Source: an uncultured Paracoccus sp.
GTDB taxonomy: Bacteria; Pseudomonadota; Alphaproteobacteria; Rhodobacterales; Rhodobacteraceae
Length of the DNA: 64,000 bases
NCBI RefSeq assembly: GCF_937873615.1
Contig: NZ_CALMYP010000034.1
Span: forward strand, 1 to 64,000
Direction: 5' to 3'
Within the stretch, counting starts at the first letter, position 1, and the number at the start of each line of letters is the position of its first letter. The notes beneath the pieces are model-generated. The model saw nothing but the letters and a program-made list of their open reading frames with translations, made no database searches and had not been told where the DNA came from. Below, one piece after another: positions 32,855-37,446 of the stretch. The position numbers and the translations under genes were made by a program.

Positions 32855-32887
32855 TTGTGATCACGCATCGAACAGGTGTGATCACAA
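32855..32887 (-). promoter_or_regulatory. bipartite operator upstream of sdhC
   Basis: TTGTGATCAC (32855-32864), 13 bases, then GTGATCACAA (32878-32887), a perfect inverted repeat whose halves are themselves palindromic. The identical arrangement occurs before sucC. It lies about 140 bases upstream of the sdhC start, beyond the likely core promoter, which favours an activator-type site. Confidence 0.8.
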
Positions 32888-32909
32888 ATACCTCTCACAG
32901 CTTCTACGC

Positions 32910-33518
32910 CTACATGACGTTGAAGAACCACGGGATCATCTTCAGAATCTGATCTCGGTCGAACGCCCCCGGACGAAGCTCGAATCTTGCCAGTCGACCG
33001 ATGAGTTCGGGTCTGCCGACCACCTCCTCGACAGCGTGATATTCCGGTCGGACCAGGTAATCGTCCATCATCACGACCATCGGCGCCTGGCAGTTCAGCA
33101 GACATGCGGCAAGGCAGCCCATGCGAAAGCGGCCGTCAATCAGCACCAGATCCGGCGCAAAATCCTTGTCGGTCCAGAGCGCCTGCGGATAGGTCCAGAA
33201 TTTCTGCCAGTTCCCCATATCGCTCGGCATGCTCCAACGCGCCGTGGGGCCTATATCGCAATGCACGAGCGTCAGCCTTGCCTGCCATTGCGGGGTGTTT
33301 TCATCGAGCCAGAGGCGCATTTTCTCAAGCCAAACGGCATCGGCTTCGACGCTGCGCAACCGGGCGCTGCAATCGGTCGCGGCAAAGGCGGTAGAACCGC
33401 CAGAGCCGTATTCACCGATGACGCGGGCCTTGCGATAAGCCTCGCAAACGGCCTCGGTTTCGTCGGGTGGCATGTAGATCGCCGGAAAGGGCGGCAGCTT
33501 CAGTGTCTGCGTCGACAT
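32910..33518 (-). CDS. SAM-dependent methyltransferase-like protein
   Basis: The 202-residue protein shows a class I methyltransferase outline: motif I-like VIGEYGSGGSTAFAA near residue 38, an acidic strand-2 end (LRSVEADAVWLEKM), then PDLVLIDGRFRMGCLAACLL, then VVMMDDYLVRPEY. The GSGGST loop is shorter than a standard glycine motif. Substrate is unknown. It is last in a run with the DUF1737 gene 8 bases upstream, then NnrU and TSUP genes. Confidence 0.65.
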   Translation of the reverse strand: MSTQTLKLPPFPAIYMPPDETEAVCEAYRKARVIGEYGSGGSTAFAATDCSARLRSVEADAVWLEKMRLWLDENTPQWQARLTLVHCDIGPTARWSMPSDMGNWQKFWTYPQALWTDKDFAPDLVLIDGRFRMGCLAACLLNCQAPMVVMMDDYLVRPEYHAVEEVVGRPELIGRLARFELRPGAFDRDQILKMIPWFFNVM

Positions 33519-33526
33519 GGCGGATG

Positions 33527-33733
33527 CTATTGCTCGCCCAGTTTCATGTCCGGGTGATACGCGCCCTCGATCTCCTTGGTGACGGCCTGCCCGCAGCGCA
33601 TCACGCCGCGCGCCGAATCGAAGGCCATGGTGGCAGGGCCATGCAATTGCCAGCCTTTCGCCAGTGCCGCGCTGATCTTGTGGCAGAATGCCGAGGTGTC
33701 GTCCTCGGACAGGAAACGGTAAATCATCGCCAT
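33527..33733 (-). CDS. DUF1737 small protein
   Basis: A 68-residue protein with YRFLSEDDTSAFCHKIS, then GWQLHGPATMAFD, then MRCGQAVTKEIEG, matching DUF1737, a short alpha/beta domain of unknown function. The ribosome site GAAGGAGGG precedes the ATG. Part of the same operon as the flanking genes. Confidence 0.85.
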   Translation of the reverse strand: MAMIYRFLSEDDTSAFCHKISAALAKGWQLHGPATMAFDSARGVMRCGQAVTKEIEGAYHPDMKLGEQ

Positions 33734-33745
33734 GCCGGCCCTCCT

Positions 33746-34300
33746 TCAGGCGCCAAAGGGATTGTAGCCGAGCCAGATGTGGATCAGCGCCACGACGCCA
33801 TAGACAACCAGCGTGGCGAGGACGGCAATCCCCTCCTTTCGGATGGGAACCGGATGGGCGGGCGGCGTCCAGCCGGGCGTGGCACGGTTGATGACGACGA
33901 TCTCGGTCATGGCCCAGGCCAGCAGCCCGCCGAACAGCACCAGCGAAGGCAGGTCGCCATTGACCAGCAGATGCGCAAAAGACCAGAGCGCGAAGCCCAG
34001 CAGTTGCGGGTGGCGCATGTGCCGGGTGATACCGGCCTTCATCCCCGAGGCGGCGTAAAGATAGAAGGCGATCAGCACCAGCAGGTTGTTGATTCCCTTC
34101 ATCATTGCCGAAGGCCCCCACCAGACATCGTCCATCGGCGCGGCCCGATAGCCCCAGACCATCAGCACCACCGACAGGATCAGCGCCGCAGCGACGGCGC
34201 CTTTGCCGGCATCGCCCATGCTCTTTCGGGCCTGCGGGGCGAGGCGCTTGAACAGATGGGCGCCCCACCACAGGGCAAGACCGAGGATCAGAAGGAACAT
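33746..34300 (-). CDS. NnrU family membrane protein
   Basis: The 184-residue protein has five to six membrane helices and the NnrU features HLFKRLAPQARKSMGD and the conserved GITRHMRHPQLLGFALWSFAHLLVNGD segment. NnrU relatives were first found near nitric-oxide/nitrite reductase genes and resemble isoprenylcysteine methyltransferases in fold. No denitrification gene is present here, so its role is open. Confidence 0.85.
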   Translation of the reverse strand: MFLLILGLALWWGAHLFKRLAPQARKSMGDAGKGAVAAALILSVVLMVWGYRAAPMDDVWWGPSAMMKGINNLLVLIAFYLYAASGMKAGITRHMRHPQLLGFALWSFAHLLVNGDLPSLVLFGGLLAWAMTEIVVINRATPGWTPPAHPVPIRKEGIAVLATLVVYGVVALIHIWLGYNPFGA

Positions 34301-35125: not shown

Positions 35126-35221
35126 CCTTCTTCCCCCTCAAGCCGCGAATCGCGCCTTGAAAGCGCGTTGGCGACCGTCTAACCCATGCCACGACCATTA
35201 GACCATTTCCCGGAGGAAACC

Positions 35222-36184
35222 ATGGCTCGTCCCAAGATCGCTCTTATCGGCGCCGGCCAGATCGGCGGCACGCTGGCTCATCTGGCCGCGATGAAGGAAC
35301 TGGGCGATGTCGTCATGTTCGACATCGCCGAAGGCACGCCGCAGGGCAAGGCGCTGGATATCGCCGAATCCGGCCCGGCCGAGGGCTTTGACGCCACCCT
35401 GAAGGGGACCAACGATTACGCCGATATCGCCGGCGCCGATGTCTGCATCGTCACCGCAGGCGTGCCGCGCAAGCCGGGCATGTCGCGCGACGACCTGCTG
35501 GGCATCAACCTGAAAGTCATGAAATCGGTCGGCGAAGGCATCAAGGCCCATGCTCCGAACGCCTTCGTGATCTGCATCACCAACCCACTCGACGCGATGG
35601 TCTGGGCGCTGCAGAAGTTCAGCGGCCTGCCGGCCGAGAAAGTCTGCGGCATGGCCGGCGTGCTCGATTCGGCGCGTTTCCGCCACTTCCTGTCGCTGGA
35701 ATTCGGCGTCTCGATGAAGGATGTCACCGCCTTCGTGCTGGGCGGCCATGGCGATACCATGGTGCCGCTGGCCCGCTATTCGACCGTCGCCGGCATCCCG
35801 CTGCCCGATCTGGTCAAGATGGGCTGGACCACGCAGGACAAGCTCGACGCCATCGTGCAGCGCACCCGTGACGGCGGTGCCGAGATCGTCGGCCTGCTGA
35901 AGACCGGCTCGGCCTTCTATGCGCCGGCGACCTCGGCCATCGAGATGGCGGAAGCCTATCTGAAGGATCAGAAGCGCGTCCTGCCCTGCGCCGCCCATGT
36001 CGACAATGCCTATGGCTTGAAGAACCTCTATGTCGGCGTGCCGACCGTGATCGGTGCCGGCGGCATCGAGAAGGTCATCGACATCAAGCTGGACAAGGAC
36101 GAACAGGTGATGTTCGACAAGTCCGTCGACGCCGTGAAGGGCCTGGTCGAGGCCTGCAAGCAGATCGACCCGTCGCTGGCCTGA
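35222..36184 (+). CDS. mdh: malate dehydrogenase
   Basis: LDH-like MDH of 320 residues, oxidising malate to oxaloacetate with [18 protein letters not shown] is the NAD loop, [17 protein letters not shown] the substrate loop with arginines, [10 protein letters not shown] the second arginine site, and [10 protein letters not shown] the catalytic histidine. GGAGG precedes the ATG at 35222. It stands between the sdh and suc loci, the usual Rhodobacterales order, but is separated from sucC by a minus-strand gene. Confidence 0.97.
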
Positions 36185-36209
36185 TCGCGTCCTCGCACGG
36201 AAAATCGAG

Positions 36210-36246
36210 AACGGCGCGCCCCCCGGGTTGCGCCGTTTTTCTTTTC
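36210..36246 (+). terminator. terminator of mdh
   Basis: An 8-bp stem (AACGGCGC / GCGCCGTT) with 12-nt loop and a following run TTTCTTTTC lies 25 bases after the mdh stop. Confidence 0.85.
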
Positions 36247-37319
36247 TACCGCGCCATCAGGGGACGAGGATCGAACCCGATCCGCTGATCCAACAGCGCC
36301 AATGCGTCGGCCTCATGCGCAACCAGAGCACGGTCGAAAGCCGCCGGGCTCAGGTCGACCCGGTCGCCAAATAACGCTTGCGTCTCGGCCTGAATCGAGG
36401 TCCCGGCATAGGTTATGCCGCCCAACTCCTCCAGCATCAGCAGTTCTTCGGCACTGACGGCCTGCATGTCGCGCCAGAGCGTCGTCATCGCCTCGGGATC
36501 CCGCGCATTTGCGATGGCATGCCCGAATTGCAGCTTGCGCGCCTTGGATGAAGGAGAGGAGAGCCCATCCAACACCACCAAGCCCCGCCGCAGCATCTTC
36601 ATGATATATTGCAGCCGGGTCATTCCGTTGAAATGCAGCAGCCGCACCGCCTCGCTGCGCCGGGACCGCAGGTCGCAGCCTGTGGCCTTGCGGCTGCTGG
36701 CCGGGCGGTGGATGTTCAGCACATAGCCGCGCCCGGCCCGCACACAGGCCTTGCCGACATCGTGACCGCTGAGCCCGGAATTCAACCGCTCGGCCCGTTC
36801 GGCCCCGTAAAGCGCCGGCCCGATCAGGCCAAAATCGCTCAGCGGCAGCCGGAAGGCACCGGCGAAGATATCGGCACCGATGTCACCGCCGGTCCAGACC
36901 CGCTCCTCAACCGTCAGCAGCAGCCATTCGATGCCCTCGGGCACCCGCGCCAACTCGTCCTCGAAAGAGGCGTCGAGGCGCAGAAACTCGTCCGCATCGC
37001 AATGGATCAGCCAGTCGAGCGTCGTTTCCCCCAGAATCCGCGTCGCGTTATAGCTCTGCCGCGCCTGGTGCCGGTCGGGACGCTTGCCGCCCCTGTCCTT
37101 CCAGCCATCCTCGCCGGATCGGTGCAGGATTACCTTCGGAATGCCGGTCAGCAGCAGTTCGACCTCAGGGTTCGGGCGGTCGAGGAACAGGTGCAACTCG
37201 CTCGCCCCGATGGCCAGGTGATGCGCGACCCAGGCGGCCAGAAGCGCCGCAGGCTCGTCCACCGTCGCCACCACGCCCCAACGCGGTGGCTGCGTCGGCG
37301 GGGAATCATCGTCGGGCAA
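36246..37319 (-). CDS. glycosyltransferase family 2-like protein
   Basis: The protein (357 residues from the TTG at 37319, with GGAG 7 bases before) opens WGVVATVDEPAALLAAWVAHH and has LHLFLDRPNPE, then the metal-binding acidic site WLIHCDADEFLRL. These are features of the Glyco_tranf_2_4 group of retaining or inverting transferases that act on surface polysaccharides. A longer start at ATG 37388 adds 23 residues of atypical composition. It is divergent from sucC and shares that intergenic region. Confidence 0.78.
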   Translation of the reverse strand: MPDDDSPPTQPPRWGVVATVDEPAALLAAWVAHHLAIGASELHLFLDRPNPEVELLLTGIPKVILHRSGEDGWKDRGGKRPDRHQARQSYNATRILGETTLDWLIHCDADEFLRLDASFEDELARVPEGIEWLLLTVEERVWTGGDIGADIFAGAFRLPLSDFGLIGPALYGAERAERLNSGLSGHDVGKACVRAGRGYVLNIHRPASSRKATGCDLRSRRSEAVRLLHFNGMTRLQYIMKMLRRGLVVLDGLSSPSSKARKLQFGHAIANARDPEAMTTLWRDMQAVSAEELLMLEELGGITYAGTSIQAETQALFGDRVDLSPAAFDRALVAHEADALALLDQRIGFDPRPLMAR

Positions 37320-37413
37320 TGCGTGCTCCTGCTGCGTTTTTCCTCGCCATGATCCTTCCTGCACGGGCCGGCGGATGCAACCGCACATTCGGATCGCCGC
37401 ATAAGACGAGGCT

Positions 37414-37446
37414 TTGTGATCACATGATTTCTAGGCGTGATCACAA
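37414..37446 (+). promoter_or_regulatory. bipartite operator upstream of sucC
   Basis: TTGTGATCAC (37414-37423), 13 bases, then GTGATCACAA (37437-37446), about 105 bases before the sucC start. It matches the sdhC site in sequence, spacing and total length. Confidence 0.8.

Follow-up and report, generated by a model that had tools for sequence, protein, structure and literature searches.

Paired palindromes before the sdh and suc operons of a Paracoccus genome as probable tandem operators of the GntR/FCD regulator AkgR

The sdh genes of succinate dehydrogenase and the suc genes of succinyl-CoA ligase and 2-oxoglutarate dehydrogenase lie together in a 64,000-nucleotide stretch of DNA from an uncultured Paracoccus sp. 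(contig NZ_CALMYP010000034.1, positions 1 to 64,000; hereafter the window), the former on the minus strand, the latter on the plus strand, and mdh between them. An earlier note, made from the letters of the window, had pointed to an identical bipartite element of 33 bp, TTGTGATCAC-N13-GTGATCACAA, before sdhC and before sucC. The two copies are exact at the positions listed in Table 1: their arms agree letter for letter, and their 13-base spacers are different. Each half had been called palindromic; the palindrome proper is the 8-mer GTGATCAC, present in every arm, and the two arms of each element are also reverse complements around the 13-base loop. The start codon of sdhC (minus strand, ATG at 32715) is 139 bp from its operator and that of sucC (ATG at 37552) 105 bp, in agreement with the 105 to 140 bases given in the note. 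Judging from sequence comparison, we consider it highly probable that both elements serve as tandem operators for AkgR, a GntR-type regulator with an FCD ligand-binding domain, which we take to be RSP_0981 of Rhodobacter sphaeroides and whose gene in this genome would be that of protein P0001 on another contig, C7.

By chance, the element is expected about 7e-9 times per 64 kb (from base composition, with one fixed spacing), and it occurred zero times in 100 dinucleotide shuffles of the window. No third place within three mismatches of the 33-bp element exists in the 64-kb window, so that the note was right to see no third non-coding copy there; to this can be added the single palindrome before the regulator gene on another contig. 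The fifth GTGATCAC of the window, at 43720, falls inside sucB. Across all 74 contigs of the genome (3.86 Mb), exact GTGATCAC-N13-GTGATCAC is found at these two places only, the next best place having two mismatches.

One could envision that an inverted repeat of this size, with reverse-complementary arms and a 13-base loop, is an RNA hairpin serving as attenuator or terminator, and not an operator. We reject this scenario on anatomy and leave it very little chance, because every arm contains a palindrome of its own, single arms stand alone before akgR, the spacing is tight at 12-13 bases and not loose, and the element is located upstream of the predicted promoter. Binding by a CRP/FNR-type protein, which the note had offered beside a GntR-type regulator, is rejected as well, and we regard it as even less probable than the hairpin. 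The CRP consensus is TGTGA-N6-TCACA, and TGTGA and TCACA boxes are indeed present in the element, but they abut, whereas those of the consensus are 6 bases apart, and the CRP motif as such is not matched. Moreover, the motif tracks a GntR gene. For R. sphaeroides, no analogue of CRP is predicted (PMC4344238). The GntR half of the suggestion is supported by the co-occurrence of the sites with a GntR/FCD gene, the palindrome before that gene and the predicted targets of RSP_0981; the CRP half is not.

The sequence TGTGATCACA has three copies in the genome, one per element and one at C7:6468-6477, before a GntR/FCD gene. The sole perfect copy in the genome of the 12-mer TTGTGATCACAA ends 7 bp before the inferred ATG of P0001, and the five places that match it with at most one mismatch are this copy, one half of each element and two places within open reading frames. 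P0001 is a protein of 218 residues with GntR and FCD domains (Pfam), encoded at L071:6486-7142 on contig C7; its ATG was picked by homology, and the open frame begins earlier. Its nearest named AkgR is that of P. xiamenensis (92%), and the DNA-binding segment of AkgR is almost invariant across 102 distinct orthologues. In the FCD domain, N134, H138 and H181 (P0001 numbering), which belong to the usual metal site, are kept in at least 98% of the rows, and H206 is below that level. The gene that follows P0001 resembles argS by eye.

In one respect the motif is unusual for a protein of the FCD type. Its GT and AC boxes are separated by 4 nt (GT-GATC-AC) and do not show the spacing of FadR/FCD sites, which is typically 3 nt for the FadR subfamily, as against 4 for HutC sites (PMC4494728), whereas P0001 is an FCD protein by Pfam. 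One alternative is that another GntR paralogue binds the double sites and that AkgR merely shares the motif. The genome holds 22 matches to the GntR helix-turn-helix family, 20 of them above the cut-off and the P0001 gene being one of the 22, and GTGATCAC has also been ascribed to another GntR-like regulator in Pseudomonas (PMC6365646). We find this alternative quite improbable, however, given that the only perfect TGTGATCACA outside both elements stands before the P0001 gene, that the presence of the P0001 orthologue goes with that of the double site across the 248 family genomes, as described below, and that RSP_0981, a member of the GntR family, is the predicted regulator of the same targets, namely sdh, sucCD and sucAB-lpd, in R. 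sphaeroides (PMC4344238).

The site at the gene of AkgR itself recurs elsewhere. Upstream of akgR, exact GTGATCAC was present in 78 of 105 distinct loci (110 loci less five repeated ones), single every time; it begins 16-43 bases ahead of the inferred start codon in 77 loci and at 72 in one. Such a lone palindrome fits autorepression of akgR. All three sites are also present in P. denitrificans DSM 413, where that of suc has one mismatch. The flank of akgR (up to 10 kb) contains sdh or suc genes in 11 of the 80 named loci; the distance between akgR and sdhA is 4.2-4.3 kb in loci L165 and L180, and in L180 sdhB sits between the two genes. One genome has two palindromes just 5 bases apart (G247:C1:3357949-3357969), about 55 bp before its akgR.

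The note had proposed a scan of related genomes, and the paired motif proved to be conserved before orthologous sdh and suc operons across the family. In our family sample of 248 genomes, nearly one per genus, the double site was found with at most two mismatches in 216 (reversed-pattern control, 1 of 248), and an exact core pair with any spacing from 0 to 30 in 222. All 37 Paracoccus genomes searched carry one or more double sites with at most three mismatches and 33 carry two or more, some of the three-mismatch places probably being due to chance. Among the 75 places listed in family genomes, the spacing is N13 in 64, N12 in 6 and another in 5. The pairing and its spacing recur in most sampled genera of the family. 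Over the class, a perfect double site (spacing 0-30) is present in 6 of 289 genomes, that is, in all four members of the family and in two of the 285 others. Two sites were set aside as unrelated to the regulon: that of G050 (N14) precedes a TonB-type receptor-like gene and that of G394 (N16) an aldehyde dehydrogenase-like gene, both by eye. Twenty genomes taken from those of the 80 named loci, and thus selected for having AkgR, all have a double site with at most one mismatch.

The regulator and the double site occur together. When an orthologue of P0001 was called at E<=1e-60 (222 of the 248 family genomes) and a double site as any exact core pair with a spacing of 0-30, both were present in 218 genomes, the regulator only in 4, the double site only in 4, and neither in 22 (odds ratio 300, p 1.3e-23, a statistic that ignores kinship). 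At E<=1e-50 the corresponding numbers are 219, 5, 3 and 21, and for the 215 genomes that are at least 90% complete they are 194, 2, 2 and 17 (p 4e-21). The search for SucC covered 30 of these family genomes, namely the 22 with neither and the 8 discordant ones; 27 gave a match, and 24 yielded sucC proper together with its upstream DNA. Among the 23 upstream regions from genomes that lack the orthologue, 16 have no palindrome, 4 have an intact pair, and 3 have one degenerate half at the ancestral place (at -139 in G077 and G217, and at -116 in G169), where shuffling leads one to expect 0.01. These degenerate halves look like decaying operators.

The genes that follow the double sites are few in kind. 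The 102 distinct double sites of the fetched loci comprise 91 with N13, 4 with N12 and 7 with other spacings. The N13 sites stand before sucC (46), sdhC (43), sucA (1) and fumC (1), and the N12 sites before sucC (2) and sdhC (2), so that all 95 distinct N12/N13 sites precede sucC, sdhC, sucA or fumC. Thirty-four of the 43 sdhC assignments were made by tblastn, 41 with a looser limit, and the last two by eye; sucA and fumC were assigned by Pfam. Since most loci were fetched by pattern match, these counts tell what follows double sites and not which share of sucC genes has one. Neither nuo nor acn, the other genes at which the note had suggested looking, follows any of these 95 sites. The remaining seven double sites are spaced by 10, 14, 16, 18 (two), 19 and 23 bases, and both 18-spaced pairs fall within the sucC arrays of L166 and L167. 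A few genomes (L091, L166, L167 and L171) have triple arrays before sucC, in which a third palindrome stands another 21 bp away. In G102, a third N13 double site (L105:1501-1530) is located 67 bp before an open reading frame for a class II fumarase, and the regulon can, because of this site, extend to fumC. As targets, fumC and sucA were each seen in one genome.

When the downstream regions were aligned on the operator, the promoter-like average peaked at 47 bp for 43 sdhC regions (z 13.3) and at 48 bp for 46 sucC regions (z 7.6). The sequence CGTGAC is present downstream of the operator in 32 of 45 sdhC regions, as compared with 3% of shuffles. It is positioned at 46-48 bp in 16 regions (15 from Paracoccus), at 57-60 bp in 14 (none from Paracoccus), at 80 bp in one, and at 20 bp in one, which has another at 47, so that the predicted sdh -35 falls at one of the two main distances in 30 of these 32 regions; several of the 13 sdhC regions that lack it show, by eye, a near match at the first place. 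The promoter regions are related by descent, and the independent cases are few. The two main distances differ by 11 bp and no case falls between them, a jump which suggests that operator and promoter have to face each other on the same side of the DNA. Relative to the predicted transcription start, the palindromes would lie at about -86 and -107.

We propose that one AkgR dimer would bind per GTGATCAC palindrome, with the two dimers on the same face of the DNA, two helical turns apart. From these positions they would help RNA polymerase start sdh and sucCDAB together, probably by a class-I-like contact, and the single site at the akgR start would serve to repress akgR. From the FCD domain and the target genes, we would guess at a carboxylate of the tricarboxylic acid (TCA) cycle as the probable ligand. 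Alternatively, AkgR might not activate from upstream but repress, or act through DNA looping from one palindrome to the other. GntR/FCD regulators are often repressors, and the site at the start of akgR suggests repression there. We think that this is unlikely for the double sites, since in both operons the predicted -35 follows them at 47-48 bp and the start codon at 105-139 bp; AkgR has, in addition, been called an activator in an account that names GTGATCAC among its binding sites (PMC6365646). A bolder formulation, which we put forward tentatively and at somewhat less than even chances, is that the lone site represses akgR and that a rigid, promoter-phased pair (whole turns: 47, 58 and 80 bp) activates the lower TCA cycle, the activating signal being the pair and not the palindrome, kept in more than 200 genera and lost together with AkgR.

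Several observations weigh against AkgR as the activator acting at these sites. No palindrome precedes akgR in 27 of the 105 loci, and the spacing of the pair is not absolute, since N12 also occurs. A double site without a clear orthologue is present in G079, G093, G156 and G174; G093 and G156 are less than 80% complete, and G093 has a diverged regulator match at 4.6e-57. Conversely, the orthologue is found but an exact double site is missing in G100, G207, G215 and G226; a site with at most two mismatches is present in G100, G215 and G226, but not in G207. A SucC tree of 68 rows needs 10 trait changes, but no more than 2 are enforced by well-supported branches, which leaves it uncertain how many joint losses were independent. 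This tree is poorly resolved, G093 appears in it under both labels, and the rows of the Paracoccus genomes G001-G036 and those of G533 were labelled AkgR-positive by assumption. Because of the few supported changes and the rows labelled by assumption, the p-value of the co-occurrence overstates independence. As to the promoters, the sucC regions have a second peak at 13 bp (z 5.9) and did not exceed shuffles in a free sigma-70 scan of the whole downstream part, the predicted promoters are consensus matches, and the sdhC set is rich in Paracoccus. Finally, sdh and 2-oxoglutarate dehydrogenase were reported to lie outside the CceR regulon of P. denitrificans, for which different regulatory mechanisms were suggested (PMC11323563); this leaves room for AkgR but does not show control by AkgR.

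Taken with these points, the double-site system is most likely the AkgR regulon, because of the co-occurrence, the targets, the palindrome at the regulator gene, the published prediction for RSP_0981 and the published AkgR motif. The guess at AkgR in the earlier note is well supported by this evidence and by the conservation before orthologous operons. For the direct link between P0001 and RSP_0981, the evidence is gene position, which suggests that the two genes may correspond: akgR is close to sdhA in L165 and L180, and RSP_0981 is located near RSP_0974-6 (PMC4344238). The regulon is of a known kind and widely kept, and its novelty is modest. What is added here is the regulator gene in this genome, the design with one site or two, and the common promoter geometry. 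In the literature searched, we found no mention of the paired arrangement, in which palindromes spaced by 20-21 bp precede a promoter-like element by 47-48 bp, although the paper that characterised AkgR may show it; the words tandem and palindrom- were not found in PMC4344238.

Compared with the AkgR regulon of R. sphaeroides, the system described here has the same kind of regulator, the same predicted targets and the same palindrome, but it is found in Paracoccus and in more than 200 genera, its sites are paired at 20-21 bp, a single site precedes akgR, and fumC and sucA are targets in one genome each. The GntR-like PS417_07240, assigned to deoxyribonate genes in Pseudomonas simiae, shares the palindrome GTGATCAC and is 32% identical to AkgR, but the site described for it is at -47 to -40 relative to the start codon of its own gene, and it has other targets (PMC6365646). 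NanR of Escherichia coli, also of the GntR family, assembles as dimers cooperatively on repeats of defined spacing; unlike the palindromes two turns apart seen here, its sites are GGTATA repeats, bound by three dimers, and it is a repressor (PMC8012715). The 20-21 bp spacing and the triple arrays with 21-bp steps would be compatible with cooperative binding of that kind. CceR, too, regulates central carbon metabolism, and in R. sphaeroides its predicted targets include sdh (PMC4344238), but it belongs to another protein family (LacI) and has another motif, and in P. denitrificans its regulon leaves out the genes named above (PMC11323563). The double sites are a direct candidate for the control of sdh and 2-oxoglutarate dehydrogenase outside CceR in P. 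denitrificans. If the proposal is right, then Paracoccus and its family would have, for the lower TCA cycle, a named, testable switch with a simple code, and the nearly fixed spacing of the pair would permit a clean test of how GntR/FCD proteins activate.

Table 1. Positions in the window of the sdh and suc genes, the putative operators and the predicted promoter elements.
Feature	Position	Strand	Remark
sdhB, iron-sulphur subunit	28516..29604	-	open reading frame; real start probably further in
sdhA, flavoprotein subunit	30075..31946	-	open reading frame; real start probably further in
sdhD, membrane anchor subunit	31924..32316	-	score under curated cut-off
sdhC, succinate dehydrogenase cytochrome b556 subunit	32326..32715	-	
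Predicted sdh -10, TATGAA	32782..32787	-	spacer 16
Predicted sdh -35, GTGACA	32804..32809	-	first base 47 bp after operator core
Putative bipartite sdh operator	32855..32887	-	cores 32857-32864 and 32878-32885, 21 bp apart
Putative bipartite suc operator	37414..37446	+	cores 37416-37423 and 37437-37444, 21 bp apart
Weak promoter-like region of suc operon	37491..37519	+	position taken from mean of family, 46-48 bp beyond operator core; the sequence here matches poorly
sucC, succinyl-CoA ligase beta subunit	37552..38745	+	
sucD, succinyl-CoA ligase alpha subunit	38752..39636	+	
sucA, 2-oxoglutarate dehydrogenase E1	40164..43133	+	
sucB, 2-oxoacid dehydrogenase acyltransferase (E2)	43135..44691	+	

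Each operator also has a neighbour on its other side. Directly upstream of the sdh operator is an open reading frame of 453 residues (window 32910-34271, minus strand) that has no match in Pfam or NCBIfam. Divergent from sucC is a glycosyltransferase-like gene (window 36246-37388, minus strand), whose longest reading begins 25 bp from the suc operator and which might share that operator.

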